IMG/VR virus record: IMGVR_UViG_3300031999_000051
Coordinates: 1-44,467 of that record
Source: a virus
DNA: 44,467 bases
Reading direction: 5' to 3' (one strand)
Below are positions 7,041 through 37,148 of this stretch, one piece after another. The notes under the pieces were generated by a model. The model searched no databases. It saw nothing but the letters and a program-made list of their open reading frames with translations, and was not told where the DNA came from. Within the stretch, counting starts at the first letter, position 1. Every line of letters begins with the position of its first letter. The translations under genes were made by a program, and so were the position numbers.

Positions 7041-7206
7041 ACCGGATAGCGGCCATTGTAGTGATTGTAAAGATTTAATTCACCATGTGGTTGAAGATTT
7101 CTCACTGCGGTACTTTAAACGGCCACTGTGTATCCCTTGCCAGGATAAACAAAGAAAATGGACAGAAATGAAAAAAAAGTATCACAAACCAGGACGAGTA
7201 GCATGA
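7030..7206 (+). CDS. Small zinc-ribbon protein, 58 aa
   Basis: The ATG lies inside the end of the preceding gene. The protein has two Cys pairs, C10-x2-C13 and C34-x2-C37, the arrangement of a zinc ribbon, followed by a lysine-rich tail. Such small proteins usually bind nucleic acid or act as transcription adaptors. The strict Cys spacing supports a real gene. Confidence 0.6.
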   Translation: MINKPDSGHCSDCKDLIHHVVEDFSLRYFKRPLCIPCQDKQRKWTEMKKKYHKPGRVA

Positions 7207-7216
7207 GCGGTCAGGC

Positions 7217-7282
7217 GGTTGAAGATTAAACTTCAACCGTACCTGGTTCAGAGGCCCGTCCCCTGGACCAGGTACAGTTGAA
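7217..7282 (+). promoter_or_regulatory. Two mutually exclusive hairpins at the start of the 7278 gene
   Basis: CTTCAACC (7231-7238) pairs perfectly with GGTTGAAG just upstream (7217-7224). Alternatively TTCAAC plus 7239-7251 pairs with 7263-7275 plus GTTGAA (7277-7282) in a stem of about 19 base pairs with one mismatch and an 11-base loop. The long stem buries the TTG at 7278, the best start upstream of ATG 7293. The layout is that of a translational switch or of an RNA processing site. No ligand class is recognised. Confidence 0.55.
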
Positions 7283-7670
7283 ATTTAAGCCTATGTTAAC
7301 TAAAACCTTTTGGGGACAAACCATAAAGGAATCAGATTCAGGTAAAACCTGGGAGTTGACGATCGCTAAAGCTTTCTGGGACGGTACTGTCGGTATTAAT
7401 AAAAAACTTGTCGATGAAGCCTGTAAGAACTTTACCAGACGGTTAAAGATAAAAGTATTGGACAAAAATGTTGAGTTTACTGTCCCGGCAGTCAAGGTTA
7501 AGATCAACCGGAAGTATATTTACGAACGTACTTCTAAATTCTCCAATGGTTCACCAATGACTTTCTATATGTATTCAATTCCCTATCAAAAATTACAACC
7601 AAAATATGAAGAAGAACCGATTGTCGGCGGTTATGTTACCGATAAAGGTCAACAGTTGAAATTTTTATAG
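7278..7670 (+). CDS. Hypothetical protein, 125-130 aa, unusual start
   Basis: No ATG with a ribosome-binding site is found. The frame can begin at TTG 7278, which lies in the right arm of a long hairpin, or at ATG 7293 (MLTKTFWGQ). The protein mixes beta and basic segments (RRLKIKVLDKNVEFTVPAVKVKINRKYIYERTSK, positions given rather than quoted in full: about residues 54-87). It may bind nucleic acid. It follows the SSB-like and zinc-ribbon genes and precedes the large non-coding region, so a replication or recombination role is plausible but not shown. Confidence 0.6.
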   Translation: MKFKPMLTKTFWGQTIKESDSGKTWELTIAKAFWDGTVGINKKLVDEACKNFTRRLKIKVLDKNVEFTVPAVKVKINRKYIYERTSKFSNGSPMTFYMYSIPYQKLQPKYEEEPIVGGYVTDKGQQLKFL

Positions 7671-8028
7671 CTTTGCGCCCTTTCTGCTGGCTGTCCCTGT
7701 CCGGAAGCAAGCTAAGCTGGTCACTCGCAAGGCGACCAGCAGAAAGGGTATCTCATCGGCAGAGTGGTCGCCCTAAGCGCTAACGGAAAAAAGCGCATTA
7801 TAAATAACCGATGACCACAGCAGGGACTCAAGGAGAACTCAGCGAAATCTCTTGATAAGCGGTGTAGGCTAAGAGGTCTTAACGCTTCCCGGCGCAAGTA
7901 ATAGTACGACTAGCTTGTGACTGATAGACCGAAATGTTTATCGCCGTCTAGATAAACATACTGATTAATCCCTCCTATAGGGATCTAAGAAAAATCTAGA
8001 CGAAATCATTAGGGAAAGCCAAGAAACC
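7671..8028 (+). ncRNA. Large structured non-coding RNA candidate, about 350 nt
   Basis: This stretch has no plausible gene but contains many long helices. 7678-7690 pairs perfectly with 7736-7748 (13 bp), and 7693-7699 with 7821-7827, which would be pseudoknotted with the first. 7753-7759 pairs with 7808-7814, 7828-7836 with 7848-7855, and 7857-7861 with 7883-7887. 7935-7942 pairs with 7951-7958 (8 bp), its loop CGTCTA (7945-7950) pairs with TAGACG (7997-8002), and 7968-7973 pairs with 7979-7984. The CCAGC arm at 7736-7740 also fits 7716-7722, and 7731-7738 fits 7765-7772, so alternative folds exist. I see no tmRNA, RNase P, tRNA or clear group I intron signature. Confidence 0.6.
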
Positions 8029-8050
8029 ATGAAAAATAATCCTAACGAAT

Positions 8051-8152
8051 ATGAGCGAAATTTTAAAAATAATGATCTATCTTTATTTTATCTTTTCGAC
8101 AATCAGCTTTATTATCGGTTTTTGTGTGTTATTCGGCACTAAACTTAAATGA
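8051..8152 (+). CDS. Mini membrane protein, 33 aa
   Basis: An ATG-initiated frame encodes one long hydrophobic segment (IYLYFIFSTISFIIGFCVLF) with a lysine-containing end. The stop overlaps the start of the next mini gene (ATGA). A start at 8029 in another frame gives a less membrane-like peptide of similar length. No strong ribosome-binding site is seen, so confidence is modest. Confidence 0.4.
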   Translation: MSEILKIMIYLYFIFSTISFIIGFCVLFGTKLK

Positions 8153-8253
8153 ATAAAGATATCTGCGATTTTAAACTATTCATGTTAATTCTGCTTTTAA
8201 GTTTGATATTTTCTTTATTTATGTTTTATTTATTTCCGATGTTACCTTGGTAA
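8149..8253 (+). CDS. Mini membrane protein, 34 aa
   Basis: The ATG overlaps the previous stop in the ATGA manner. After a short polar start the peptide is one membrane segment (LFMLILLLSLIFSLFMFYLF) ending in MLPW. The stop lies directly before the AAGGAGG of the next gene. Two adjacent single-span peptides may form one membrane complex. Function unknown. Confidence 0.4.
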   Translation: MNKDICDFKLFMLILLLSLIFSLFMFYLFPMLPW

Positions 8254-10752: not shown

Positions 10753-10971
10753 TTAATATTCCTCCAGATTTGCTACTCTTCCGGAACCGGCTTTGGCGTG
10801 GGTGGGAAAAGTATCTTTTAATTTATTATCGATTTTCTTCAGTTGTGCTATTTTTTCTTCTAGTTTATCTGAGTCAAATGCAGAGGTAATTGACCAGATG
10901 TATTTGCCGTGAGTGGTAAGTTTGAGATTGATTTCAATTGTGTTTTTCTCAAGATAGGCGAAGGTTTGCAT
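10753..10971 (-). CDS. Small hypothetical protein, 72 aa
   Basis: It is the first gene of the minus-strand trio. The N-terminal half is beta-rich (TIEINLKLTTHGKYIWSIT), followed by a charged helix (DKLEEKIAQLKKIDNKLKD). The stop lies inside the ribosome-binding region of the next gene. Upstream, on the minus strand, TTCAAC (11030-11025), 17 bases and TGTAAT (11007-11002) make a plausible promoter overlapping the phage-wide palindromic element. Confidence 0.6.
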   Translation of the reverse strand: MQTFAYLEKNTIEINLKLTTHGKYIWSITSAFDSDKLEEKIAQLKKIDNKLKDTFPTHAKAGSGRVANLEEY

Positions 10972-11002
10972 CAGAACGATTATTGTTTTTTAAGACAGAG
11001 AA

Positions 11003-11031
11003 TTACACTAGATAATTAATTAGTGTTGAAT
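11003..11031. promoter_or_regulatory. Divergent promoter palindrome with the phage-wide element
   Basis: ACACTA (11005-11010) and TAGTGT (11021-11026) form an inverted repeat around an AT-rich centre. Read rightward it contains CACTAGATAAT of the recurring element. Read leftward it offers TTCAAC-17-TGTAAT for the minus-strand trio. The symmetry fits a dimeric regulator controlling both directions. Confidence 0.5.
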
Positions 11032-11054
11032 AAGGAAAGAGGTCATCCTATAAT
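11026..11054 (+). promoter_or_regulatory. Rightward sigma-70-type promoter
   Basis: TTGAAT (11026-11031), a 17-base spacer and a perfect TATAAT (11049-11054). Transcription would begin around 11060, inside the left arm of the long inverted repeat, and run toward the packaging genes. Confidence 0.65.
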
Positions 11055-11150
11055 ATTGTGCGACAATTCCGCTTGCAGATTTCCTCTGTTAGCTAGTCAG
11101 GTTCAAGTAGTCTGTTAGCAACAATTAACAGAGGTAGCATGTCGCACAAT
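11055..11150 (+). ncRNA. Two-tier inverted repeat / structured RNA upstream of the terminase genes
   Basis: ATTGTGCGACA (11055-11065) pairs perfectly with TGTCGCACAAT (11140-11150). Nested inside, CCTCTGTTA (11083-11091) pairs perfectly with TAACAGAGG (11126-11134). TCTGTTAGC occurs twice (11085 and 11111), giving an alternative partner. ATTGTGCG recurs at 11155-11162 and could displace the outer stem. It may be a small RNA, an operator or a packaging signal. Confidence 0.5.
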
Positions 11151-11395
11151 AAACATTGTGCGCCAGGGGGTAGTGGGAGTATCCCAATTGAGCCGCCTGT
11201 CTGTAAATATTTGTTATAGTCTTTCTGCAGCATGGTTTAGGATCCTCTAACTCTAAAATATAGAATATTTATCCTATAACTTTTTAATCAATAATTTAAT
11301 TCTAATCTTATCGGAGTACCAGGGTTCCACCGCCTGGATCAAAATACCATTTATCTTATAATTCTTTTATCTAGTTTCATCTCCTCTAACCATCT

Positions 11396-11403
11396 GGTAT
11401 ATT
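11396..11403 (+). promoter_or_regulatory. Extended -10 promoter for packaging genes, leaderless start
   Basis: TGGTATATT (11395-11403) lies ten bases before the ATG at 11413, so transcription would start at or next to the start codon. No ribosome-binding site is present. A degenerate copy of the recurring element, TTATCTAGTTTCAT, begins at 11367 with TAGTTT at 11372, 41 bases before the ATG. Confidence 0.55.
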
Positions 11404-11412
11404 ACTTAGTTA

Positions 11413-23424: not shown

Positions 23425-23659
23425 ACCATATAAGCAGTTTTTAAGTGAACAGAAATTCTTCTTTCCGGAAATTCTATCTAATGATATGCGGGCGGATAAT
23501 AAAAAGATTATCAAGATTACCATTAATGGCAAAGTCTATGAGGTTTTAACCGGGGAGATAACAACAGTTGCTTATGAAACCTTTTGTCTTTTAAAAGATA
23601 ACGGCATTATTACGGATGACGGCAGGTATGAAATAGGAGGTAGATTTGACCCCCTATGA
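23390..23659 (+). CDS. Small hypothetical protein, 89 aa
   Basis: The ATG at 23390 (MNQRHHSLKK) is preferred to the upstream start at 23294, which lies deep in the previous gene. The C-terminal half (IKITINGKVYEVLTGEITTV) is beta-rich and resembles the end of the C2H2 protein at 31170, which also has TINGxxY. It overlaps the first glycosyltransferase by 14 bases. Confidence 0.5.
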   Translation: MNQRHHSLKKVKPYKQFLSEQKFFFPEILSNDMRADNKKIIKITINGKVYEVLTGEITTVAYETFCLLKDNGIITDDGRYEIGGRFDPL

Positions 23660-24710
23660 TTGGCTGGAACCGTTTAATTGGTGGGGGTGGAGCAATCCAA
23701 TCTCCGGTTATGGGATTGTTAATCTTGAATATGCGACTGCTTTGGAGCGGTTGACCGGTAAAGTTTCCTATGGTTGGGAAAGAAAAGAACACATCTTGCC
23801 TAAGAATTTTGAACAGTTAATCCAGGAACAGAAAGATATTTTAACTAAACCATATATAAAATCTTCTTTGGGCATTATTAAAACTATTCCCCAGCTTTTC
23901 TATATGAATAAATCTGATTTCAGAATCGGTTATACGATGGTGGAAAATACCAAAATCGGCAAAAGATGGGTGGAATATTGCAACCAAATGGATGCGCTTT
24001 TCGTCCCCAGTAAATTTTTAATCGATGTTTTTTCCTCCTGCGGAGTAAGAAAACCAATTAAAGTAGTTAAGCAGGGAATAAATCAGAAGAAATTTCCATA
24101 TTATAAACGAACCAAAAAAAACAAGTTTATTTTCGGTACTGTCGGTTATATGGATGACCGTAAAAACTGGCAGGATATGGTTTCAGCTTTCGGTTCGGAA
24201 TTTGATAATAATGAACCGGTGGAATTGTGGATTAAAAATAACAATGGTTATTTTATCAATACCCGGTTTGATGACCTGCGGATTAAAGTAATTAACCGGA
24301 TTTATAGTTTTGAAGAGATTCAAAGACTTTACCGGTTGTTTGATTGCTATTTATGTCCTTCTCATGCTGAGGGATCAAGCCTGACTCCCCGGGAGGCGAT
24401 GGCTACCGGCCTGCCGACGATTTTAACCAACTGGTCAGGAATGACAGAGATCTGCAATCCGCAGTTTAATTATCCCCTAACCCCGATTGCTATTAATGTT
24501 CCTGATATCCGGGGTCCGGAACAGCCCGGGTTTATGGCACAGATTGACATTTCGGAACTGATGTATTGGATGCGCTATGTTTACGAACATTGGGAAAAAG
24601 CGATGGAAAAAGGCAAAAAAGCCTCGGAATATATCCATAAGGAATGGAATTGGGATACCTGCGCCATTGATCTTTTAACTAAAGTTAAGGAATTAAAGGA
24701 GGGAAAGTGA
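23646..24710 (+). CDS. GT4-type glycosyltransferase, 354 aa
   Basis: The start is TTG with GGAGG about seven bases upstream. The protein has a GT-B layout: an N-terminal acceptor half beginning with GYGIVNLEYA, FIFGTVGYMDDRKNW (161-175) at the start of the donor half, and the E-x7-E motif EGSSLTPRE (242-250) followed by AMATGLPTIL. Such enzymes retain the sugar configuration and use nucleotide-sugars. It opens a chain of about 20 coupled sugar-modifying genes. The sugar and acceptor are unknown. Confidence 0.85.
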   Translation: MTPYDWLEPFNWWGWSNPISGYGIVNLEYATALERLTGKVSYGWERKEHILPKNFEQLIQEQKDILTKPYIKSSLGIIKTIPQLFYMNKSDFRIGYTMVENTKIGKRWVEYCNQMDALFVPSKFLIDVFSSCGVRKPIKVVKQGINQKKFPYYKRTKKNKFIFGTVGYMDDRKNWQDMVSAFGSEFDNNEPVELWIKNNNGYFINTRFDDLRIKVINRIYSFEEIQRLYRLFDCYLCPSHAEGSSLTPREAMATGLPTILTNWSGMTEICNPQFNYPLTPIAINVPDIRGPEQPGFMAQIDISELMYWMRYVYEHWEKAMEKGKKASEYIHKEWNWDTCAIDLLTKVKELKEGK

Positions 24711-25306
24711 ACGATTTTTTCGGATTTAACGATTGGTTTACCGCTAAATATTTAATTAAATCTTCCCAAAGATTTCATTCTTTTAAGGCAGCTTTGAATA
24801 TTATTCTCCAGCGGGGTTTTGGCAATATTGTGGAAACCGGCACGACCCGGATGGTTGATGACTGGGGAGCCGGGATGTCAACTTATCTTTTTGGCGATTT
24901 TGCCAAACATTACGGTAAGCACGTCTGGACGGTGGATATTTTATCCAGTGCGATTGAAATCTGTAAAAAAGTAACTGAGGAATTTAAAGACCAAATTACT
25001 TATACGGTTGGTGATTCGGTTAAGTTTTTAGAATCATTTGAAAGCCAAATTGACCTTTTGTATCTTGATTCAATGGATTGTCCGATTGAAGTTCAAGCCG
25101 ATTCACCTGATCTTTTGGCTTCCCAAAATCATCAGTTGGCAGAACTAAAAGCGGCCTGGGAAAAATTGTCCTATCATCCGGTGATTTTATTGGATGATAA
25201 CTGGTTTAGTAACGGTGGCAAGGCCAAACTATCTAAGGAATTTTTACAGCAGAAAGATTATTTATGTTTAATGGATTACCAGCAGTCTTTGTGGATTAAA
25301 AAATGA
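24707..25306 (+). CDS. Class I SAM-dependent methyltransferase, 199 aa
   Basis: The GTG start overlaps the previous stop and follows AAAGGAGGG. VETGTTRMVDDWGAGMST (about 43-60) is the glycine-rich SAM loop, VDILSS the acidic strand end, DLLYLDS and VILLDDNW later strands, matching Methyltransf_24-like sugar O-methyltransferases. Likely O-methylates a sugar in the glycan. It is coupled to glycosyltransferases on both sides. Confidence 0.7.
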   Translation: MNDFFGFNDWFTAKYLIKSSQRFHSFKAALNIILQRGFGNIVETGTTRMVDDWGAGMSTYLFGDFAKHYGKHVWTVDILSSAIEICKKVTEEFKDQITYTVGDSVKFLESFESQIDLLYLDSMDCPIEVQADSPDLLASQNHQLAELKAAWEKLSYHPVILLDDNWFSNGGKAKLSKEFLQQKDYLCLMDYQQSLWIKK

Positions 25307-26301
25307 ATATTTTGTATTTGTCGTGTCATTCGATTCTGGAATATTTGGAAACAAAACTGTTTACTGAGATGGGCCACCAGGTATTTTCTTTTGGTTCATA
25401 TATTAATTCCTGGCATCCCCATGATAATAAACGCCCGGGATATGAAGGTTTTTATTCACATAAATTAATTACCCTAGCCGGAAAATGCACCCAGGAAAAT
25501 TTAGACCAGAAATTAATCAATTGGGCAGACGTGGTGATTGTTATGCACAAACCGGAATGGATTATTAATAATTGGCAGAAAATGAAAGGTAAAACAGTTG
25601 TCTGGCGGACGATTGGCCAGTCAGTGCCGGAGATTGAAGGCTTATTAAGCTTATCCAGGAAAGAAGGTTTAAAAATAGTCCGTTATTCTCCTCGGGAAAG
25701 AGCTATCCCCGGGTTTATTGGCGAGGATACTCTTATCCGGTTTTATGTTGATGAGGAAGAATTTACTGGGTTTACCGGGGAAAACCCAGTAGTAATTACG
25801 GTAGTACAAAGTATGAAAAACCGGCTTAATTACTGCAACTGGGATGTGTTTGAGAAAGTGACCAGCGGTTTTAACCGGAGTGTTTACGGACCGGGGAATG
25901 AAAACGTGGCTGGCAATGCTGGAATTTTATCTTATGAGGATTTAAAAAAGGCTTACCGGACTAACCGGGTTTTTGTTTATACCGGTACTTATCCGGCTTC
26001 CTATACTTTAGGTTTTATTGAAGCGATGATGACCGGGATACCGGTAGTGGCAATCGGAGAAAGGTTAGCGGACATCAGACTTTATCCGATGCAAACTTAT
26101 GAGGTAGATAAAATTATTAAACATAAAGAAAACGGGATTTGTTCTGAAAATATTAATGAATTGCGGGATTTAATCAGTAGTTTATTGACAGATATTAATG
26201 ATGCCAAAAGGATCGGGGAAGCCGGCAGAAAAACAGCCATAGAATTATTTTCTAAAAAAGTTATTAAACCACAATGGGAGGCATTTTTCAAAACATTATG
26301 A
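25303..26301 (+). CDS. GT-B-fold glycosyltransferase, 332 aa
   Basis: The ATG overlaps the previous stop (ATGA). The N-terminal domain starts NILYLSCHSILEYL. The C-terminal part has YTGTYPASYTLGFIEAMMTG and IPVVAIGE, the donor-binding region of GT4-like enzymes. The overall length is normal. Specificity is unknown. Confidence 0.75.
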   Translation: MNILYLSCHSILEYLETKLFTEMGHQVFSFGSYINSWHPHDNKRPGYEGFYSHKLITLAGKCTQENLDQKLINWADVVIVMHKPEWIINNWQKMKGKTVVWRTIGQSVPEIEGLLSLSRKEGLKIVRYSPRERAIPGFIGEDTLIRFYVDEEEFTGFTGENPVVITVVQSMKNRLNYCNWDVFEKVTSGFNRSVYGPGNENVAGNAGILSYEDLKKAYRTNRVFVYTGTYPASYTLGFIEAMMTGIPVVAIGERLADIRLYPMQTYEVDKIIKHKENGICSENINELRDLISSLLTDINDAKRIGEAGRKTAIELFSKKVIKPQWEAFFKTL

Positions 26302-26912
26302 AATTATTACTACCTATTTATCCGGAACCATCAAATCCTGCTTACTCGATGTACAACACGGGAGGTGTGGAAGTTGAAGTTGGTGAATTTCTTTATGGTT
26401 TGGTGAGGATGATTAAACCGGAAGCGATTTTAGAAACCGGTACTCACAAAGGAATTTCTGCCTCATATATGGCTACTGCCTTAAAAGAAAACGGTAAAGG
26501 AAAAATTACCACCTTGGAGTTTGAACCACAACATTGGGAAATAGCCAATAATATGTTTCAAATAATGGGATTGCAATCTTGGATTATTTCAAGTTTACAG
26601 GATGCTAGCACTTATCCGGTCAAAGAAAACGAATTTGATTTTATCTTTTTGGATACTGAGCCACACTTGAGATTTGCCGAGTTTTTGCGGTATTGGCCGG
26701 CCTTGAAGCCCGGAGGATTTGTGGGAATCCACGACCTTGGACCAGGGATGGGACAGTCAGGCCAAACTGTTAATGGGGTATTTAACTGGCCGTTTGGCAC
26801 ACTGCCGGAGGAAATGAAGCGGATTTTAAAAGAAGAAATTCAGAGTTTCCATTTTAAAACGCCTCGGGGATTATACCTGGGACAGAAGAAAGCGGAGGAT
26901 TTCTATGAGTAG
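26298..26912 (+). CDS. Class I SAM-dependent methyltransferase, 204 aa
   Basis: The start at ATG 26298 overlaps the previous stop and is preferred over 26274. AILETGTHKGISASYMA (about 44-60) is the SAM loop, TTLEFEPQH the ribose-binding acidic strand, FDFIFLDTEPH a later strand and GFVGIHDLGPG a conserved loop, as in Methyltransf_24/cephalosporin-hydroxylase-like enzymes. Probable sugar O-methyltransferase. Confidence 0.75.
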   Translation: MKLLLPIYPEPSNPAYSMYNTGGVEVEVGEFLYGLVRMIKPEAILETGTHKGISASYMATALKENGKGKITTLEFEPQHWEIANNMFQIMGLQSWIISSLQDASTYPVKENEFDFIFLDTEPHLRFAEFLRYWPALKPGGFVGIHDLGPGMGQSGQTVNGVFNWPFGTLPEEMKRILKEEIQSFHFKTPRGLYLGQKKAEDFYE

Positions 26913-27870
26913 AGCAGCATTATTACCTTCCAGAGGTGATCCGATTACCCTGCGTCTGGTTTGGCATTATTTTGAGACTGTCTGGCAGGATGAGGTGGAT
27001 AAACTGTATTTAAACGTTAATACTCCCTGTGAAAAATCAGTGGTTGATTTTATCCAAAAGTTTACCAAGCACCCGAAAGTGGTCTTTTCTTACGATGACC
27101 ATTCCCTGGACCACGGCGGATCCCTAACCAAAATGTTTAAACAAGGGACTGAAGAATTTATTGTTTTTATAGAAGATGACAGCTTGATTTATAAAAAAGG
27201 CGTACTTGATGCTCATTTTAAATATATCGAAGCCGGCGGTTTTGACGGCGTAGGGGCTTTACGTTGGTCCTGTTCCGGACCGTTGGTTGACCGGGGCAGG
27301 GAAATATTTGGACTTCGTGATGCAAAATATGATCCGGGCGGTTGGTTCTGGCCCTGTTTTTTCTTTGCCAAACGATCGGATCTTAACAAAACCGATTTAA
27401 ACTTCTGCGGCAAACATTGGAAACGGGGAGAGTTTATCGAACCGATGGGTTGGTATTCTCCGGAAGATATGGATTCCGATACGTTTGTCTGGATGAGTAT
27501 TCAACTGCGGGCTTTAGGATTGCGGTTTATGGAGATTCCTACGCCTTGTGATTTAGGTACTGGCTGGGTGCATTTGACTACCTTATCTTCTCCTATGGAG
27601 TATTTATTGACTGATGATAATGATTGTCCCATAGCTCTAAGGCATGGTAAGAGCGCCTATAAAGCCAGTCCGGTGTTGGCTGAAACCGGTGAATTTAATA
27701 AAAAAGTGGCCTGGATGAAAATCTGTCTGGAGAAATTCGATTATTCGGAAATTAAAGAATTTCGGGATGTCTATGAAAAAGCGATTGAACGGGCAATCGA
27801 CCGGTTTTCTGCCAATAGGAATAATATAGAAAATTTTAGAAAGGAGTATAAAAATGCGTTGGGCTTTTGA
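26905..27870 (+). CDS. GT-A-like glycosyltransferase, 321 aa
   Basis: The segment FIVFIEDDSLIYKKG provides a DXD-like metal and nucleotide-sugar site near residue 92. GVGALRWSCSGPLVDRG and FFFAKRSDL follow, as in small GT-A transferases that carry no membrane anchor. It is a paralogue of the protein at 28201, with the same GDP-x3-L-x3-W-x-Y start. It overlaps its neighbours at both ends. Confidence 0.65.
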   Translation: MSRAALLPSRGDPITLRLVWHYFETVWQDEVDKLYLNVNTPCEKSVVDFIQKFTKHPKVVFSYDDHSLDHGGSLTKMFKQGTEEFIVFIEDDSLIYKKGVLDAHFKYIEAGGFDGVGALRWSCSGPLVDRGREIFGLRDAKYDPGGWFWPCFFFAKRSDLNKTDLNFCGKHWKRGEFIEPMGWYSPEDMDSDTFVWMSIQLRALGLRFMEIPTPCDLGTGWVHLTTLSSPMEYLLTDDNDCPIALRHGKSAYKASPVLAETGEFNKKVAWMKICLEKFDYSEIKEFRDVYEKAIERAIDRFSANRNNIENFRKEYKNALGF

Positions 27871-28204
27871 TATTGACTCTGTTATCACTGCTAATCCTGA
27901 GTTTTTTCGCTGGTGGATTTATCACCTGAAGAAAAGCAAACAGGAGGTTTTTATCGTTACGGCTAGAAACCCGAAACGGGAACAAGAAACAATCTTTGAA
28001 TTGGAAGATTGGCATATTCCCTATGACAAGATTTATTTTATGCCAGACATTTTGCCAAGGGATTTTTCCGATCAAGCGATGTGGAAGAAAAAGAAAATAA
28101 AGGAACTTAAAATTGATATCTGGGTAGACGATAATTTCAAGATTTACCGGAGGGCATTGGGAATTAGTACTGATATTAAAGGAGTGACAAAAATTGAAAT
28201 ATGA
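27854..28204 (+). CDS. HAD-superfamily phosphatase, 116 aa
   Basis: Motif I is Asp6-x-Asp8 (FDIDSV), motif II TAR at 36-38, and motif IV VDDN at 91-94, the pattern of small HAD phosphatases related to 5'(3')-deoxynucleotidases and sugar phosphatases. AAGGAG precedes the ATG, which lies in the end of the previous gene. In this setting it could remove phosphate from a sugar or nucleotide intermediate. Confidence 0.75.
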   Translation: MRWAFDIDSVITANPEFFRWWIYHLKKSKQEVFIVTARNPKREQETIFELEDWHIPYDKIYFMPDILPRDFSDQAMWKKKKIKELKIDIWVDDNFKIYRRALGISTDIKGVTKIEI

Positions 28205-29142
28205 GAATAGCAATAACTCATTTTGACGGTGATCCGTTTGTTTTAGATTTTTGGTTGTATCTTTACCAACGGTTTTGGCGGGGAGAAGTGGATACAGTTA
28301 TGGCCGATGTTTGTTATGACCCGCAATTGGTACCCGACAGTGTTATCGAATCACAAAAGATTTCCTGCGGTCGTTTCCCGGAGATTGAGGTAAAGTGGAT
28401 ACCCAATTGTCAGGTGCCGGAACAATCTAACGTTGAACTGATTAAGAAAGTTAAAAAAGGTTTTCTGGTTTTGGTGGAGAGCGATTGTTGGATATTCGGC
28501 AAGGGAATAATTAAACAATATTTCAAATATATTGAAGAGGATTCACATGATATAGTCTGTGGCAATTACCGGCTTTGGCCGGAAAATGTTGATAATATTT
28601 TGGGTTATGCCGGTTTTATGCGCAACCTTTTTTTTGCCCGGAAAAAGTTATTTGAGATTATTGATTTGGATTTTTTCCCCAGATGTTCACCGGATGGTTT
28701 ATCCCTAGATTGTTTTGGTTGGATTTCCTACCAACTGGCCCGGATGAAACCCAGAGTTTTATATATCCCCAATAATTTTGTGGTTGATAACCAGAATCCT
28801 GGTGAATTTATCCAGAATAAGTGGCTGCATATCAGACAAATGAACTCCAGTATTTTGGGTTTTGGTAATTGTGGCATTTATCGGGGATTTGCTACTGGTG
28901 ATGAGAAGAAAATAGCAAAAGTTAAAAAAGAAGTAATCGGCAGTGAGCCAGCCGAATGGCAGTATTACAAAGCAATCGCCATGCGACTTTTAATGTTGGG
29001 AGTATTGCCAGAGAAAAAAGAATTAGAGGAATACCGCAAAAACTATCTGGAAACTATTAAATTGGTAATGGTCCAGTTGGGATTGGACCAGGGAAAGATA
29101 GCCAAGTTTAAAGCTTTTTACCGGGCGGTGATGGAAGTATGA
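28201..29142 (+). CDS. GT-A-like glycosyltransferase, 313 aa
   Basis: This is a paralogue of the 26905 protein. FLVLVESDCWIFGKG replaces EDD by ESD at the metal site, YFKYIEEDSHDIVCGN matches YFKYIEAGGFDGVGA, and FFARKKLF matches FFAKRSDL. The ATG overlaps the stop of the HAD gene. The changed metal-site residue may alter the donor. Confidence 0.6.
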   Translation: MRIAITHFDGDPFVLDFWLYLYQRFWRGEVDTVMADVCYDPQLVPDSVIESQKISCGRFPEIEVKWIPNCQVPEQSNVELIKKVKKGFLVLVESDCWIFGKGIIKQYFKYIEEDSHDIVCGNYRLWPENVDNILGYAGFMRNLFFARKKLFEIIDLDFFPRCSPDGLSLDCFGWISYQLARMKPRVLYIPNNFVVDNQNPGEFIQNKWLHIRQMNSSILGFGNCGIYRGFATGDEKKIAKVKKEVIGSEPAEWQYYKAIAMRLLMLGVLPEKKELEEYRKNYLETIKLVMVQLGLDQGKIAKFKAFYRAVMEV

Positions 29143-30089
29143 TTAATGTTTTGAGCTACTGGCACCATAGCGATCTTTGGTGGTCTTTACAGCTTTTGTG
29201 TAATCGGTTGGGATTTACCCTATCCCGGATGGTGGGAATGGAATGGTACGAAAAAGGCTTTTTTGATATTTATGATCCCCAGATTTACGCCCATAAATAT
29301 TTAGTAGATGATGTGGGGCTTTACCAGCGCTTGGATCCGGACTTTCCCTCGGAAAAGACTTTAAATTTTAAGTCGGCTTTAGAAACTCCAATAGACATTA
29401 TTTTATGTTCTAATCGGGAGACAGAGAGGCCATTATGGGATTTTGCCCGCAAGCATAAACCAAATGCCAAACTGATCCGCCAGGTTGGCAATATGCTGGA
29501 TACGGTGGATATCCAGAAATACCCCCATACTTTATATTCTGACAAACAGAGTTTTGAGGAAAACCAGGGCCATAAGATTTTATACCATCAGGAATTTAGG
29601 ATGGATTTGTTTACCTACCAACTATCGGTGAATAAGAATAGAATTTATACTTTTCAGAATGACTATCATCAGTATAAGCCAGCGGAAGTGTTTTCTAACC
29701 AGTTAAAACAGAAATTTCCAGATTATATTTTGAAAGAATACGGCCGGAATACTACCGGCGGTTTTATTTTTCCCAAAAGAGATTATATCCGGGCGATCCG
29801 GGAAGCTAGTTTTATCTGGCAAGTAAAGCATTGGGAGGGTTATTCCCATAATATTCATTCTTCTTTTGCTTTAGGCCGGCCCATGATTCTGCGGCGTGAA
29901 GATATTAAAGGTAAGATTTTTGAGCCTTTGTGCGATGAAACTACCACTATATTTACCGACCAGTTGGAACGGATAAGGACTATAGATTTACAGGATATGT
30001 CAGCCAACTGCCGGATCAGGTTTGAAAATACAGTCAATTTTGATAAAGAAGCAGAAGAATTAAAAAAGTTCTTTGAGTTGGTTTTATGA
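29139..30089 (+). CDS. GT-B-like glycosyltransferase, 316 aa
   Basis: It starts HHSDLWWSLQLLCNRLG, shared with the next protein. AKLIRQVGNMLDTVDI, ILYHQEFRMDLF, and HNIHSSFALGRPMILRRED near the C-terminus are typical of a donor-binding half. Family recognition is at the fold level only. The ATGA overlaps mark coupling on both sides. Confidence 0.6.
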   Translation: MINVLSYWHHSDLWWSLQLLCNRLGFTLSRMVGMEWYEKGFFDIYDPQIYAHKYLVDDVGLYQRLDPDFPSEKTLNFKSALETPIDIILCSNRETERPLWDFARKHKPNAKLIRQVGNMLDTVDIQKYPHTLYSDKQSFEENQGHKILYHQEFRMDLFTYQLSVNKNRIYTFQNDYHQYKPAEVFSNQLKQKFPDYILKEYGRNTTGGFIFPKRDYIRAIREASFIWQVKHWEGYSHNIHSSFALGRPMILRREDIKGKIFEPLCDETTTIFTDQLERIRTIDLQDMSANCRIRFENTVNFDKEAEELKKFFELVL

Positions 30090-31123
30090 ATGTATTTTGT
30101 GATAAACATCATATTGGTCTTTTATATTCTTTACAACTTTTGTTTGAAAAACGCTTAGGCTGGAATTTATATACTCCGATTGGTGAAGAATGGTTTACTT
30201 CCGGCTTTTGGAAAATAGCCGAGCCTTACGGAAATCATCCATCTACTATTAGCCAATTTTTATCTTTAAATAATACTTACCAGCCGACTCTCCAAATGCC
30301 TTCCCAAAGTACGATTACCAAAGAAAAGCTTAATTATTATGAAATCTTAGATTCCCAGAATAATACTACTCATAAAGCGATTACTTTAGAACAGTTTAAG
30401 CAGATGTCGATTGATATTGTGATTGCTTCAATCCCGGATCATATTGAACCATATAAGAGACTTATTAGTTTATACCAACCGAAAGCTAAATTTATTTTCC
30501 AGATGGGTAATATGTTTGGATTGGATTTTTCTGCGATCCCGAATTTAATGGCTTCAACCATGCCGTTTACCGTTTCTTGTAATGCTATTTTCTACCATCA
30601 GGAATTTGACTTAAATATTTTTAAGTATGTACCGGTAACCGGAAAAAAGAAAATCAGCAGTTTTGTCCACTGTTTGCCGGAAAGGGAAGTTTATGCCAGT
30701 TATAGAAATTCTTTACCGGAGTTTAATTTTAAAGCTTATGGCGCTGGTTGTCCGGACGAAGCGATAACTGCCAGCCGTGACGTAGCCAAAACCATGCAGG
30801 AATCTGATTTTGGCTGGCATATCAAACCCGGCGGTGATGGTTATGGTCATACTATCCATAATTGGTTTGCTTGCGGTCGGCCGGTGATCACCCGTCGTAG
30901 TGATTATGCTGACAAACTAGCCGGGAGTTTACTGGAAGATGGAGTAACTTGCATTGATCTTGAAAAACGTGGGTTTGAGGACAATTTAAGGTATATAAAA
31001 GAATACTCTGAAGCAGAAAAGCTTCAGAAATTGGCTTTAAATGCGTCTAACAGATTCAAGAATACGGTTAATTTTGATTCTGAAGAGCAAAAAATCAAGG
31101 ATTTTCTATTTAGCATTATCTAG
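30086..31123 (+). CDS. GT-B-like glycosyltransferase, paralogue of 29139, 345 aa
   Basis: The N-terminus HHIGLLYSLQLLFEKRLG, AKFIFQMGNMFGLDF, IFYHQEFDLNIF and HTIHNWFACGRPVITRRSD align with the preceding protein, so the pair arose by tandem duplication. The stop codon TAG lies inside the recurring regulatory element. This gene ends the first coupled run of the cassette. Confidence 0.6.
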   Translation: MNVFCDKHHIGLLYSLQLLFEKRLGWNLYTPIGEEWFTSGFWKIAEPYGNHPSTISQFLSLNNTYQPTLQMPSQSTITKEKLNYYEILDSQNNTTHKAITLEQFKQMSIDIVIASIPDHIEPYKRLISLYQPKAKFIFQMGNMFGLDFSAIPNLMASTMPFTVSCNAIFYHQEFDLNIFKYVPVTGKKKISSFVHCLPEREVYASYRNSLPEFNFKAYGAGCPDEAITASRDVAKTMQESDFGWHIKPGGDGYGHTIHNWFACGRPVITRRSDYADKLAGSLLEDGVTCIDLEKRGFEDNLRYIKEYSEAEKLQKLALNASNRFKNTVNFDSEEQKIKDFLFSII

Positions 31124-31146
31124 TGTCAAAAAATGGTCAATTTAAT
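31113..31146 (+). promoter_or_regulatory. Recurring element at the break in the cassette
   Basis: ATTATCTAGTGTCAA begins at 31115, with TAGTGT at 31121-31126 overlapping the stop codon. TAATAC/TACAGT about 16-19 bases downstream could serve as -10. The next gene, a C2H2 zinc-finger protein, has a normal ribosome-binding site, so an internal promoter for the second half of the cassette is likely. Confidence 0.4.
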
Positions 31147-31169
31147 ACAGTGAAGGGAGGTGAAGACTT

Positions 31170-31454
31170 ATGCCAACTAATTTAATGATTTGTGAAATAT
31201 GCGGCAAGAAATATATCAACAGGGACTATTTTAAACGCCATATGGAAAATGATCATAAATCAACACCGGTAGTAGAAACGCCGGTGGTAGCTGAAATTCC
31301 GACAACAATTACTTTGCATTTTGCCGATCCGGTGGAAGTAACGATTAATGGAATCCATTATAGCGGAAAAGAAATGAAGGTAGCCAATATGGAGATAGCT
31401 TCGGAGATTGTCAGGATTGCCAAAGAAGCCTATGGAGAACATATTTTATTGTAA
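31170..31454 (+). CDS. C2H2 zinc-finger protein, 94 aa
   Basis: Residues 8-29 fit a classical finger: C8-x2-C11-x12-H24-x4-H29, with Tyr and Phe at core positions. The rest is Val/Thr-rich then beta-rich (ITLHFADPVEVTINGIHYSG). AAGGGAGGTG precedes the ATG. Bacterial and phage C2H2 fingers are uncommon; it may regulate the cassette or bind a partner protein. It stands alone between two glycosyltransferase runs. Confidence 0.75.
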   Translation: MPTNLMICEICGKKYINRDYFKRHMENDHKSTPVVETPVVAEIPTTITLHFADPVEVTINGIHYSGKEMKVANMEIASEIVRIAKEAYGEHILL

Positions 31455-31468
31455 AAGTAAATCATTAT

Positions 31469-32239
31469 ATGTTGAGTGTAATTATTCCGTCTCATAATGA
31501 AATATATCTTCAAAAGACGATCGACTCGCTTCTTAAAAACTGTGGTGGAGAAATAGAAATTGTTGTTGTCTTAGATGGTTATTGGCCGAAGATTCCTTTG
31601 TTGGAAGATAAACGGGTAAAGGTAGTTCATTTAGGTAAGAACCGGGGAATGAGAGGGGCGATCAACGCCGGAGTATTAGTTTCCAAGGGTGAATATATTA
31701 TGCGGACCGATGAGCATTGTATGTTTGGCGACAGATTTGATCTTCTTTTAACAGCCACGATACAAGATAACTGGATAGTAACTCCCCGGAGATATTTCCT
31801 TGATCCGGTAAAGTGGGAAGTCATGGATTTACCACCAGTTGATTATGAAAAATTGGTTATCCAGGATAACAAAAAGTTCTCCGGACAAAGGTGGGATTCA
31901 AGAACCGAAGAAAGAAAAGACATTATGGTTGATGAGACTATGGCGATGCAGGGATCCTGTTGGATTATGAAACGTAGTTGGTGGGATAAAGTGATCGGAG
32001 AATTGCAAACCGAAGGGTACGGACCGCTTTATCAGGATTCCCATGAAATGGTATTTAAAACCTGGAAAGCTGGCGGAAAACTGATGATAAATAAAAGCAC
32101 CTGGTTTGCCCATAAGCACCGGAGTTTTCCCAGGACCCACAATTACGGTACGGCCGAAGCCACTCCCGGTTGGACTTATTCTTTAAATCTTTGGCGTGAT
32201 TATTATTTAAACGAAATTGTACCCAAATGGAAGATATAA
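31469..32239 (+). CDS. GT2 family glycosyltransferase, 256 aa
   Basis: The start LSVIIPSHNEIYLQKTIDSL is the GT2 signature, IEIVVVLDGYWP binds the nucleotide, GMRGAINAGVLVSKGEYIM follows, and TDEH (80-83) is the DXD-like site. MQGSCWIMKR and DSHEMVFKTWKAGG complete the fold. Inverting transfer from a nucleotide-sugar is expected. It shares many positions with the protein at 35256. Confidence 0.85.
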   Translation: MLSVIIPSHNEIYLQKTIDSLLKNCGGEIEIVVVLDGYWPKIPLLEDKRVKVVHLGKNRGMRGAINAGVLVSKGEYIMRTDEHCMFGDRFDLLLTATIQDNWIVTPRRYFLDPVKWEVMDLPPVDYEKLVIQDNKKFSGQRWDSRTEERKDIMVDETMAMQGSCWIMKRSWWDKVIGELQTEGYGPLYQDSHEMVFKTWKAGGKLMINKSTWFAHKHRSFPRTHNYGTAEATPGWTYSLNLWRDYYLNEIVPKWKI

Positions 32240-32925
32240 CTTTACTTTTTATTACCGGCAATCGGGTCCCTGAAAAATGGGGAGCGTTTCAGCGTAAAAC
32301 CATGCTGGAAGCTGGGAAGGGCAGTCCGGTTATTACAATATCAAGACAACCGATGCCGTTTATGCCCGGGATTAATTTATTGGATGATAAGCCTTCTGGA
32401 CCACTTAATTTCTACAGCCAGATACTAAGGGGTGCCAAAACTGCTACCACTCCCTATGTGGCTTTGTGTGAGGACGATACTTTATATACCGAGGATCATT
32501 TCAAATTCAGACCGCCGTTGGATACCTTTGCCTATAACGTCAACCGTTGGTCTATCTACACTTGGGGTGTGCCGACTTATTCGTTTAGAAAAGGCTCAAG
32601 GTGTGGTTGTGCCGGGATCTATCCCAGACAATTGGCAGTAGATTCGTTAGAGGAAAGATTCGAAAGATACGGCGACCATATACCAATCAAGATTTTCGGT
32701 GAGTTGGGTTGTTATGAGAAATATATGGATGTCACCATAAGAAAGACAATTAACTTTTATTCTGATCCGCCGATTATCCAAATGGCCCATCACTACTTTT
32801 CTTTACATGAGAATACGCCGGAAGCAAGAGTGCATATAGAACGTAAGAGAATGGGTTTTGTCCGGGCCTTTGAGGTGCCGTATTGGGGAAAAGCTGAAGA
32901 TATTGTGAGGTATTTCCATGACTGA
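32227..32925 (+). CDS. Small GT-A-like glycosyltransferase, 232 aa
   Basis: TLLFITGNRVPEKW starts the protein, PVITISRQPM follows, and TPYVALCEDDTLYTEDHF carries the EDD metal site. It belongs to a three-member family with 32918 and 34092. It overlaps the neighbours by 13 and 8 bases. The ending VPYWGKAEDIVRYF is shared with its paralogues. Confidence 0.65.
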   Translation: MEDITLLFITGNRVPEKWGAFQRKTMLEAGKGSPVITISRQPMPFMPGINLLDDKPSGPLNFYSQILRGAKTATTPYVALCEDDTLYTEDHFKFRPPLDTFAYNVNRWSIYTWGVPTYSFRKGSRCGCAGIYPRQLAVDSLEERFERYGDHIPIKIFGELGCYEKYMDVTIRKTINFYSDPPIIQMAHHYFSLHENTPEARVHIERKRMGFVRAFEVPYWGKAEDIVRYFHD

Positions 32926-33589
32926 TTTAACAATTCTTTATTTAACATTGAATAAACTGCCGGAAGGTTGGATGGCCTACCATAAAAAAGTCTTATTGGA
33001 AGCGGTTGGGGATACACCGATAATTACTATCTCCAAGAAACCGATGGATTGGGGAATTAACATATTACAAACTGAACCGGAATCATTATCCAATATTTAT
33101 TGGCAGATGTTAAAAGCGGGTAAAATTGCCACCACGCCGTTTGTGGCAATAGTTGAAGATGACACGCTGTATTCCAAAGAACATTTTGCCTTCCGTGATC
33201 CGACCGCTTTTTCCTACAATATGACCCATTGGTCTTTGTTTACCTGGGGAGAACCGACTTATTCCTGGAGGGATCGGACCGGTAATTATTCAATGATTTC
33301 CTCAAGACAGTTAATGATTGATGCTTTGGAAGAAAGATTTGCCAAATGGCCTAATGGTACGCCAAAAGATATAACTGGGGAATTGGGAAGGGATCGGGTT
33401 AATAGGAATTTAGGTTTGTCAAAACGAAAGTTAGTTGAGTATTTTACCACCATTGGAATCGTCAATTTCAACCATGATTATTCCGAAGAAGAATACCAAC
33501 GCACCCATGTTAAAAGGATGGGACCATTACGGGCTTATGATATACCGTTTTGGGGAAAGGCCAGCGAACTGGTAAAAAACTTTAAATGA
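32918..33589 (+). CDS. Small GT-A-like glycosyltransferase, 223 aa
   Basis: This is the closest paralogue of the 32227 protein: TILYLTLNKLPEGW, PIITISKKPMDWGINI, TPFVAIVEDDTLYSKEHF, SLFTWGEPTYSWRD and IPFWGKASELVKNF align along the whole length. Tandem duplication is clear. Divergence in the middle may set acceptor or linkage. Confidence 0.65.
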   Translation: MTDLTILYLTLNKLPEGWMAYHKKVLLEAVGDTPIITISKKPMDWGINILQTEPESLSNIYWQMLKAGKIATTPFVAIVEDDTLYSKEHFAFRDPTAFSYNMTHWSLFTWGEPTYSWRDRTGNYSMISSRQLMIDALEERFAKWPNGTPKDITGELGRDRVNRNLGLSKRKLVEYFTTIGIVNFNHDYSEEEYQRTHVKRMGPLRAYDIPFWGKASELVKNFK

Positions 33590-34095
33590 CAACATCAAGT
33601 GAAAAATACCGACTGCATGGACCATATCATTGGTGGTGGTATAAAAATAAACCAAAATATACCCGGTATGTTAATAAAGTTAAGGAGTGGATAAAGGAAA
33701 CTAATGTTCTTGATGTTGGGGCAGGAGATGGATTGATAGTTCATGTTTTGGGGATAATGGGAGTGGATAATGTACCACACGCAGTTGAATTGGCAAGGAG
33801 AAGGGGAGCGGATGTAATTTGGGGGGATGCTTATGATTTATCTTTTAGAGACGGAGAATTTGATGCAGTTTTTATGGGCAATGTTCTGGAGCACTTGGAT
33901 AATCCCAAAAAGGCATTAAATGAAGCCAGAAGGGTTTTGTCGAAATATCTTTATCTTATAGTTGCGGCAAAAGAACTCCCATTCATGATTACATCGCAGG
34001 AATTAAAAGAAATGGTTGAAAATGAAGGATTTAAGTTAGAAGGAAAAATATTACTAGATGATAAAGCGTGGTGGGCCAAGTTTAAAAAAATATGA
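33586..34095 (+). CDS. SAM-dependent methyltransferase (type 11), 169 aa
   Basis: NVLDVGAGDGLIVHVLG is motif I, HAVELARR the next helix, GDAYDLSFRDGEFDAVFMGNV motifs II/III and LEHLDNPKKALNEARRVL the classic type-11 end. It is short, lacking a long C-terminal cap. It probably methylates a sugar. The ATG overlaps the stop of the previous gene. Confidence 0.8.
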   Translation: MTTSSEKYRLHGPYHWWWYKNKPKYTRYVNKVKEWIKETNVLDVGAGDGLIVHVLGIMGVDNVPHAVELARRRGADVIWGDAYDLSFRDGEFDAVFMGNVLEHLDNPKKALNEARRVLSKYLYLIVAAKELPFMITSQELKEMVENEGFKLEGKILLDDKAWWAKFKKI

Positions 34096-34721
34096 ATAGA
34101 ACAATTTTGTATTACACCAGCAATAAGGAAGATGAAGTTTTTGAAAAAAAGATTAGGGAAAATATCTTAAAACAATGCGGAGATATTCCGATCGTTAGTG
34201 TATCCCAAAAGCCGATAGACTTCGGGCAGAATATCTGTGTTGGTGATGTCGGCAGTTCCTATTTTAATCAATGGCGGCAGATTCTTATTGGTCTGAAAAC
34301 GGTTAAAACCAAGTATGTTATTTTTTGTGAATCAGATTTCCTTTATTCCAAGGATTATTTCGACTTTAAACCTAAAGATAATCTTAGTCGGTATGAGAAT
34401 GTTTGGATTGTGTTTAACTATCGAATCAATGGATATAACCGGAAGATATATTCAGAAGGGGCGCAAGTCGGTAATACTAAATACCTGATTGACCAATATG
34501 AGAAGTTTTTTGAAGATAAACCTGAATGGTCAAATTTGAGATTGGGTAAAAATAACTATCCATTATTTGCTGAACCGTTCAGTTGGTTTACCGGAACTCC
34601 CTGCGTTAGTTTCAAGACAGGGAAAGGTGTCAGGGCTTTTACCAATACATTAAAACACAGAGAAACAACTTTGCCTTATTGGGGGGATGTTGAAAAATTA
34701 AAGGAGAAATATTTATGTTAA
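34092..34721 (+). CDS. Small GT-A-like glycosyltransferase, third paralogue, 209 aa
   Basis: TILYYTSNKEDEVFEKK, PIVSVSQKPIDFGQNI, TKYVIFCESDFLYSKDYF and LPYWGDVEKLKEKY align with the proteins at 32227 and 32918. EDD is replaced by ESD, as also happens in the 26905/28201 pair. Coupled by ATGA to the methyltransferase before it. Confidence 0.6.
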   Translation: MNRTILYYTSNKEDEVFEKKIRENILKQCGDIPIVSVSQKPIDFGQNICVGDVGSSYFNQWRQILIGLKTVKTKYVIFCESDFLYSKDYFDFKPKDNLSRYENVWIVFNYRINGYNRKIYSEGAQVGNTKYLIDQYEKFFEDKPEWSNLRLGKNNYPLFAEPFSWFTGTPCVSFKTGKGVRAFTNTLKHRETTLPYWGDVEKLKEKYLC

Positions 34722-35269
34722 TGCAGAAACAACCAAGGTTAAACCATTCTAAGGGTTGGTCAACCCATCAGACTTTATTATTAAAAGCTTTGTTTTCCAG
34801 CAAAGGCCCGGTATTGGAAGTTGGCGGAGGTTTATTCTCTACTCCATTATTACATTGGATGTGCAAGAGTTTGGACAGAAAATTAGTCAGCTGTGAAAAT
34901 GATAAGGAATGGTTTGATATTGTAGTCCATAATTTTGTAGCTCCTAATCATCGGACTGTATTTATAACCGATTGGGAAAAAGAATTGGATTTAAAAACTC
35001 ATTGGGGCCTAGTGTTTATTGACCATCACCCGAATATCAGAAGGGCGCTGGATGTAATCAGGTTTAAAGATACGGCTGATTATATTGTTATCCATGATAC
35101 TGATTATGAAGGCATGAATAGGAGAATGAGATATGACTATGCCCGGGTCTGGCCGAATTTCAAATATATCTATCACTGGAAAGCTTGTCGCCCTTGGTCA
35201 TCGGTAGTTTCTAATTTTTATGATGTATCAAAGTGGGATGACAATATTTTACATTATGAAAGATCTTAG
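34715..35269 (+). CDS. Class I methyltransferase-like protein, 184 aa
   Basis: VLEVGGGLFSTPLLHWM (about 33-49) is the SAM loop, KLVSCENDKEWF the acidic strand, WGLVFIDHHPN and DYIVIHDTDYEGM later strands. It follows AAAGGAG and overlaps the previous gene. A sugar O-methyltransferase is likely; motif II differs enough that activity is unproven. Confidence 0.65.
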   Translation: MLMQKQPRLNHSKGWSTHQTLLLKALFSSKGPVLEVGGGLFSTPLLHWMCKSLDRKLVSCENDKEWFDIVVHNFVAPNHRTVFITDWEKELDLKTHWGLVFIDHHPNIRRALDVIRFKDTADYIVIHDTDYEGMNRRMRYDYARVWPNFKYIYHWKACRPWSSVVSNFYDVSKWDDNILHYERS

Positions 35270-36215
35270 CATTTTAATACCAAGTCGAAATGAAATATTC
35301 CTCAAAAATACGATTGAGGATATTTTAAAGAATATTGAGGCCGATACTGAAGTTATCGCTGTTCTTGATGGTAAGTGGACTGAACCGCAAATCCCCCAAC
35401 ATGAACGAGTTAATTTAATTTATGTTCCGCAAGCTATTGGGCAACGGGCAGCCACTAATCTATCCTGTAAATCTTCCAAAGCCAAGTATGTGATGAAACT
35501 GGATGCTCATTGTTCTTTTGACAAGGGCTTTGACCGCAAGATGCTGGAAGCATTTAAGGTAACAGGGGATAACGTGACTATGGTACCGATAATGAGAAAC
35601 CTGTGGGCTTTTGATTGGAAATGTTATAAATGTGGTAAAAGAATATACCAGGATAAAACTCCAATTTGTCCGCTTTGCGGAACCCCGATGAAACGAAAGA
35701 TGTTGTGGATTGGCAAACGTAACCCTTCATCTACCTCTTATTGTTTTGATGCTGAGCCTAAATTCACTTACTTTGAAGATTGGAAACACCGGTCGCAATA
35801 TTTAAAAGATAAACAAGAAAAAGGAATAACTGAAACCATGAGTCTGCAGGGTTCATGTTTTATGTGTACCAGAGAGAAATATTTGGAACTTAATTTATGT
35901 GACGAAAGTTTAGGCAGTTGGGGAAATCAGGGAATAGAAGTAGCGGTCAAAACTTGGCTTTCGGGTGGCCGGGTGCTTTGTAACCATAAGACTTGGTATG
36001 CCCATCTTTTCCGGACTAAGCAAATTTTCGGTTTCCCTTGGCCGGTTTCCGGCAGTGACCAGCAAAGAACTAAAAAAAACGTTAGGGATCTATTATGGAG
36101 CGGTAAATGGCCTAAACAAATACATCCGATTTCCTGGTTGGTAGAGAAGTTTTGGCCGGTAAAGGGATGGACAGAAGAAGATTTGAATAAACTAAAAAAT
36201 GCTAATTACAACTGA
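35256..36215 (+). CDS. GT2 glycosyltransferase with an inserted zinc ribbon, 319 aa
   Basis: The start at ATG 35256 gives a clean GT2 beginning (LSILIPSRNEIFLKNTIEDI) with the LDAH metal site at 82-85. Between the metal site and the later LQGSCFMC motif lies C123-x2-C126-x11-C138-x2-C141, a zinc ribbon absent from the paralogue at 31469. The insertion could bind an acceptor protein or partner. It ends at the deacetylase gene, overlapping it by 17 bases. Confidence 0.8.
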   Translation: MKDLSILIPSRNEIFLKNTIEDILKNIEADTEVIAVLDGKWTEPQIPQHERVNLIYVPQAIGQRAATNLSCKSSKAKYVMKLDAHCSFDKGFDRKMLEAFKVTGDNVTMVPIMRNLWAFDWKCYKCGKRIYQDKTPICPLCGTPMKRKMLWIGKRNPSSTSYCFDAEPKFTYFEDWKHRSQYLKDKQEKGITETMSLQGSCFMCTREKYLELNLCDESLGSWGNQGIEVAVKTWLSGGRVLCNHKTWYAHLFRTKQIFGFPWPVSGSDQQRTKKNVRDLLWSGKWPKQIHPISWLVEKFWPVKGWTEEDLNKLKNANYN

Positions 36216-36690
36216 TGATTTATGCTTGTCATATCTTAAAAACTTTAGTTATTTTGACAAGTTAAAGGAGAAGAAACCTGATTTAAAAGTCATCGCTTTT
36301 ACAATCGGTAACTTTAAAAACAATGAACCTTTATTGGAGTCAACTATTTTTAAGGAATGGTTTGAAAAACATAAAGATTGGGTTGAAATTGGCGTTCACA
36401 GCTATGACCATGACGGTTTACCGGACGGCGACAGAGATGATGAAGAATATTGGATTAAGAAAGCCTTAGAAAGTTTACGGCCGTTTCTGCCGGAAAGGTA
36501 CGGTTATCGCAGTCCCGGTTGGCAGACAACGATTAAAACGATACCGATATTAAAAAAGTTAGGTTTCTCTTATATCGCTTATTTTAGCAAGATAAGAGAC
36601 CTAAAGGAGGAAAAGATAATCGAAACTGAAATTATAAATTCTCATTTATACGATATTAAATCGTTACAAAAGATAGGAGGTGAACTATGA
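36199..36690 (+). CDS. Polysaccharide deacetylase-like protein, 163 aa
   Basis: TTDDL (Asp6, Asp7) gives the metal and base aspartates, GVHSYDH (His67, His71) the H-x3-H zinc ligands, and YRSPGW (103-108) the conserved arginine motif of NodB-type carbohydrate esterases. It would remove acetyl groups from N- or O-acetyl sugars. It is short for the family and lacks the usual last His motif in clear form, but NSHLYD near 146-151 may serve. Confidence 0.75.
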   Translation: MLITTDDLCLSYLKNFSYFDKLKEKKPDLKVIAFTIGNFKNNEPLLESTIFKEWFEKHKDWVEIGVHSYDHDGLPDGDRDDEEYWIKKALESLRPFLPERYGYRSPGWQTTIKTIPILKKLGFSYIAYFSKIRDLKEEKIIETEIINSHLYDIKSLQKIGGEL

Positions 36691-37148
36691 AATATTTAAA
36701 AATTACTATTCTTGAACCTGCTGGTGGTTCGATGATTTATCCAAATGGATATCAGTCAGAAATCGGCGATTATAATGTTCATCCTCTTTATTATGATGAA
36801 AACAAATTAGATAACCAATCAGAATTATTATTGATGATAAAAGACAAAGACTTTAAACCAGAAATGATTCGTGATCGGGTAGTGGAAATAACTGAGACAG
36901 AGGCAAAAGCAATTTCTGAAGCCAATGAAAATCGGGTTGAAGAAATTAAAGATGAAGCTAAAGTCAGACGGTTAGAAATTAAAGCTCAACTTGGAATGGC
37001 ATTAACAACTGAAGAAATTAATGCCTTAGATCCGACTAAACCTAATTCTGCTTTTGGCACAAGCAAGATTTTTGCCGATAAAGTGGATGAGTTAAAATCT
37101 CAGGAATTAATAGCCAAAAACAAAGGAAAGGATAAACCAATTGCCTGA
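36687..37148 (+). CDS. Hypothetical protein with helical C-terminus, 153 aa
   Basis: GGAGGTG precedes the ATG. The first 70 residues form a small beta-rich domain (ITILEPAGGSMIYPNGYQ), the rest is a charged helix (KAISEANENRVEEIKDEAKVR). Position before a fibre gene and this layout resemble fibre-assembly or fibre-accessory proteins, but no family is recognised. It overlaps the next glycosyltransferase by eight bases. Confidence 0.5.
   Translation: MKYLKITILEPAGGSMIYPNGYQSEIGDYNVHPLYYDENKLDNQSELLLMIKDKDFKPEMIRDRVVEITETEAKAISEANENRVEEIKDEAKVRRLEIKAQLGMALTTEEINALDPTKPNSAFGTSKIFADKVDELKSQELIAKNKGKDKPIA

Follow-up and report, generated by a model that had tools for sequence, protein, structure and literature searches.

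The phage genome studied here has, in its early region, a gap of 358 bases at positions 7671–8028 (+ strand), which the first-pass annotation described as an unclassified, highly structured RNA. Is this gap indeed non-coding, does its fold exceed what chance would give, and in what capacity might such an RNA act?

Genomic context and coding status of the candidate RNA

The window analyzed is the whole 44,467-base record of the IMG/VR virus IMGVR_UViG_3300031999_000051. Comparison of the contig ends showed 99.3% identity over 142 bases between positions 1–142 and 44326–44467, and the contig is therefore probably a closed, complete genome or a circularly permuted one. A tyrosine integrase, a terminase, a portal protein, and a major head protein are encoded. 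Relatives were sought through the terminase, the capsid protein, and ORF130, the gene upstream of the gap, and two related phages were found: an IMG/VR contig of 44,510 bases (head protein and terminase 78% and 59% identical, respectively) and a prophage within a Candidatus Collierbacteria genome (69% and 57%). Since the latter resides in Ca. Collierbacteria, the host of the phage is probably a member of Patescibacteria, as far as one prophage can indicate.

The locus is composed of the following features.

7278–7670, +, ORF130, coding-like, 130 codons from TTG or 125 from ATG 7293
7671–8028, +, candidate RNA, filling the whole gap from the ORF130 stop to the tiny membrane ORFs
8051–8152 and 8149–8253, +, two tiny predicted membrane ORFs with a stop/start overlap, directly downstream of the candidate

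The 5′ edge of the candidate directly abuts the stop codon of ORF130, and its 3′ edge is set by an ATG at 8029, 22 bases before the ATG at 8051. The codon scores of 7671–8028 were −0.19 to −0.25 across all six frames, each frame containing 5–10 stops; neither a decayed coding frame nor a codon signal compatible with stop read-through was detectable. The segment is thus non-coding, and it also lacks any Rfam, tRNA, or tmRNA match, in agreement with its first description as an unclassified non-coding RNA. The codon score of ORF130 (0.172 from ATG 7293) falls among those of true genes, which span 0.00 to 0.25. No family match or relative of ORF130 was found, the gene is not present in either related phage, and an AlphaFold prediction of the protein alone was uninformative (pLDDT 50). 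The tiny membrane ORFs gave negative codon scores, and their coding status is therefore weak. No Shine-Dalgarno sequence was seen before 8029 or 8051.

Helices of the candidate RNA and their excess over chance

The helices predicted on the + strand are as follows.

7671–7676/7759–7764, +, extension of the long stem in the minimum free energy (MFE) structure
7678–7690/7736–7748, +, perfect 13-bp stem with a 45-nt loop, pair probabilities 0.84–0.98
7693–7699 (GUCCCUG)/7821–7827 (CAGGGAC), +, possible pseudoknot of the long-stem loop with a downstream sequence, seven perfect Watson-Crick pairs
7716–7722/7734–7740, +, alternative 7-bp hairpin, overlapping the next helix and excluding the upper part of the 13-bp stem
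7731–7738/7765–7772, +, competing 8-bp helix, excluding the upper part of the 13-bp stem
7753–7759/7808–7814 (7 bp) and 7764–7769/7813–7818 (6 bp), +, crossing helices with a 2-nt overlap
7777–7781/7792–7796, +, hairpin inside the crossing helices
7771–7776/8009–8014, +, long-range closing helix of 6 bp, pair probability 0.6–0.85
7828–7855, +, hairpin UCAAG(G)AGA/UCUCUUGA, pair probabilities 0.3–0.93
7858–7886, +, hairpin AGCG/CGCU with inner helix 7866–7870/7875–7879, pair probabilities 0.81–0.98
7893–7919, +, hairpin CGCAAG/CUUGUG with inner helix UAGU/ACUA
7923–8002, +, two-state 3′ module, with hairpin 7968–7973/7979–7984 in both states

The segment had been credited with at least seven perfect or near-perfect helices, and a count with a minimum length of 7 bp gave nine perfect Watson-Crick helices, compared with a mean of 2.9 in 200 dinucleotide shuffles, only one of which reached nine. 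For perfect helices of at least 9 bp the count was three versus 0.22, a number matched by none of the shuffles. Comparison with 362 other 358-nt windows of the same genome was less striking: nine or more such helices occurred in 24 windows, and an equal or higher helix score in two. Among the helix measures, only the 13-bp stem was unique, being matched in none of the 200 shuffles and none of the 362 windows, so that this element of the original description is borne out. The competition of three partners for 7734–7740 was likewise confirmed, the partners being 7716–7722, 7686–7690 (inside the long stem), and 7765–7772. In addition, the strands of hairpin 7893–7919 have alternative perfect pairings with 7673–7679 and 7708–7714 (7 bp each). 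The pairing 7693–7699/7821–7827 and the crossing helices 7753–7759/7808–7814 and 7764–7768/7814–7818 are adjacent on the 3′ strand (7808–7827) and would be compatible with the long stem, a suggestive arrangement.

The MFE of the segment is −109.8 kcal/mol, with a z-score of −2.9 on the + strand and −1.8 on the reverse strand; for 7870–7989, the local z-scores are −2.9 and −1.1, respectively. The better z-score on +, together with the 3′ module described below, is the strand evidence for +. A surplus of A in the unpaired bases was dropped as strand evidence, as it is near the expectation from composition (z 1.1). Compared with GC-matched genome windows, the folding energy is only 1.2 SD lower, and we therefore conclude that the structure signal is real but moderate and is mostly carried by the long stem.

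Nested and pseudoknotted forms of the 3′ module

The first-pass annotation proposed an H-type pseudoknot at 7935–8002. Both of its helices exist: in the pseudoknot state, 7934–7942 pairs with 7951–7959 (9 bp), leaving six pairs (7945–7950/7997–8002) of the 9-bp helix 7945–7953/7994–8002 free of clash. A nested pair that had been overlooked, 7923–7929/7936–7942, is combined with the full 9 bp of the latter helix in the alternative state. The nested state has the better energy, −22.0 kcal/mol, versus −16.0 kcal/mol for hairpins 7934–7959 and 7968–7984 before addition of the six pseudoknot pairs and the penalty. The nested pairs reached probabilities of 0.87–1.0 in an ensemble model that does not allow for pseudoknots. 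In the genome, 14 compact crossing helices are equally strong, and shuffled genomes contain 2–15 of them, so that the H-type pseudoknot alone is weak evidence. The modest energy excess, the favored nested rival, and the lack of a homolog in the searched collections leave two parts of the original description not established. The segment is moderately rather than highly structured, and the two proposed pseudoknots, the H-type one and the perfect 7-bp pairing 7693–7699/7821–7827, are possible pairings that are not established as real features.

Searches for homologs and comparison with known RNAs

An Infernal covariance search against Rfam 15, the check proposed at first pass, assigned no family, with no match at the gathering score and, for 7671–8028, none up to E = 10; snoRNA and PVX matches were rejected as chance. 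The statement that the segment bears no tRNA, tmRNA, RNase P, or intron hallmark is in line with these results and with the absence of an ARAGORN fold. A blastn search of 50,697 phage and 72,556 plasmid records found no homolog. The scans of viral contigs and genome contigs were sensitive to close relatives only: 2.9 million viral contigs, searched with short patterns, yielded nothing related; a pseudo-protein scan in two frames with 11 degenerate patterns returned 36 candidate stretches, none of which was confirmed; and, as exact DNA patterns, a 16-mer found 23 loci with no similarity beyond the 16-mer, and an 18-mer found none. In about 1,100 Patescibacteria genomes (blastn, three overlapping draws of 374–393), only chance matches of 23–37 nt appeared, one within a peptidase-like gene and one beside a tRNA-like sequence. 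A single-sequence covariance model of the 3′ domain had no match in 374 genomes of one class. Both related phages lack a counterpart, their early regions being largely unrelated.

The large phage RNAs ROOL and GOLLD are often located near tRNA islands and are backed by covariation, and GOLLD often exceeds 800 nt (PMC12286853). The candidate resembles them in being non-coding, multi-helical, and phage-encoded, with possible pseudoknots, but differs in its size of about 350 nt, in the lack of homologs in our searches, and in the lack of tRNA genes, which often but not obligatorily accompany ROOL and GOLLD and of which ARAGORN found none in the window. The ROOL and GOLLD covariance models did not match 7671–8028 at E ≤ 10. 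The first-pass annotation called the segment not recognizably related to these RNAs, and no test supports a kinship; its comparison with them is fair as an analogy of type, but every membership test made fails. Group I introns share with the candidate the combination of nested and crossing helices, and a GAUAGAC stretch resembles by eye what we take to be a P7 strand, which we regard as a lead only. Unlike in group I introns, however, no P4–P6 domain lies between the crossing helices and no split gene surrounds them; as the Rfam intron model was also unmatched at E ≤ 10, a group I intron core was rejected.

Possible roles of the segment

Our tentative preference, held at rather less than even confidence, is that 7671–8028 is a structured RNA specific to this lineage, forms part of the early transcript that runs rightward, and acts in cis. 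This reading is favored because the segment spans the whole gap on the strand of its neighbors, has competing helices near the next starts, and is bordered on the + strand, in a crude scan, by neither a sigma-70-like promoter nor a terminator-like site, which fits co-transcription rather than a unit of its own. The absence of a coding signal, the helix excess, the unique 13-bp stem, and the better folding of + than of − relative to shuffles also speak for it; the lack of a homolog and an energy not unusual among genome windows speak against it. The RNA would fold within the mRNA, separating ORF130 from the next genes, and the fold would set the translation level of the downstream tiny membrane ORFs or the stability of the transcript. 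The 3′ module, which lies shortly before the start codons at 8029 and 8051, could adopt either of two forms that exclude each other and so might act as a switch. Like structured mRNA leaders and phage cis elements, the candidate is flanked by early genes of the same orientation and has competing helices before possible starts, but unlike in structured leaders, no ligand, expression platform, terminator, sequestered Shine-Dalgarno sequence, or covariation has been identified. A cis-regulatory leader is located 5′ of a translated gene in the same transcript; the position of the candidate fits, but the coding scores of the tiny ORFs are weak. Because of this and the missing Shine-Dalgarno sequence, the supposedly regulated target is itself uncertain. 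At present, the candidate amounts to a moderately strong lead. Should the fold prove genuine, a structured RNA could be assigned to a phage from the candidate phyla radiation, where few examples are known to us, and metatranscriptomic and probing work would have a concrete target.

We consider it rather unlikely that the segment is an ordinary intergenic spacer or a decayed insertion that seems structured since it is GC-richer than its surroundings. The unexceptional energy among GC-matched windows, the 24 of 362 genome windows with as many helices, the frequency of equally strong pseudoknots by chance, and the absence of conservation are all as such a spacer would have it, but the shuffles matched neither the 13-bp stem nor the count of helices that reach 9 bp, and the early region is gene-dense, with no trace of a decayed frame in the gap.

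It appears unlikely that the segment gives rise to a separate phage RNA of about 350 nt that acts in trans, represents a new class, and is either processed from the operon or transcribed apart from it. The existence of large structured phage RNAs (PMC12286853) lends this reading some plausibility, as do the size, the multi-helix architecture, the closing helix 7771–7776/8009–8014, and the sharply defined 5′ edge where ORF130 stops; the borders without promoter- or terminator-like sites, the lack of homologs, the absence from both related phages, and the lack of a nearby tRNA island argue against it. Its more specific version, a pseudoknotted trans RNA class of about 350 nt that acts early in infection and is limited to one lineage of Patescibacteria phages with poor sampling, is improbable.

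Similarly doubtful is a DNA-level element (a replication origin, partition site, or regulatory site) that would work through its inverted repeats in DNA form, jointly with the repeat-rich region 7090–7664 upstream. All the perfect helices are strand-symmetric, a 29-nt inverted repeat is present at 7226–7288, and the motif GTTGAARWTT, chosen post hoc, occurs five times in the 44 kb, always within 7090–7664. However, the + strand folds better than the − strand, and 7671–8028 contains no iteron-like direct repeats. An origin by GC skew was rejected, as the cumulative skew rises through the region with no turning point at 7671–8028.

Neighboring elements and other regions of the genome

Two tandem strong hairpins closed by AGGC/GCCU occupy 7206–7292, directly before ATG 7293 of ORF130, and include the 29-nt inverted repeat (7226–7254/7260–7288). 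With an MFE of −39.8 and a z-score of −5.6, this local fold is far stronger than that of 7671–8028; its Rfam matches were all far below threshold and reflect the long hairpin. The location of so strong a fold immediately before a start codon suggests that structured leaders may be a habit of the ORF130 operon, and the element deserves the same attention as 7671–8028. Two identical copies of a 13-nt direct repeat, ACAGTTGAAATTT, enclose ORF130 at 7274–7286 and 7652–7664; this repeat and the GTTGAARWTT set may represent an array of protein-binding sites or the remnant of an insertion.

Elsewhere in the genome, a long gene run at 23646–38466 includes several glycosyltransferase- and methyltransferase-like genes. 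A 639-aa ORF at 38456–40375 consists mostly of an SPS(L/V/I/A)SPS repeat, and its product is a large, repetitive, perhaps surface-exposed protein. The non-coding stretch 10960–11412, upstream of the terminase genes, carries inverted TTGTGCG-type repeats, and part of it is conserved at the corresponding position of the relative G001; it is possibly a packaging or regulatory site.
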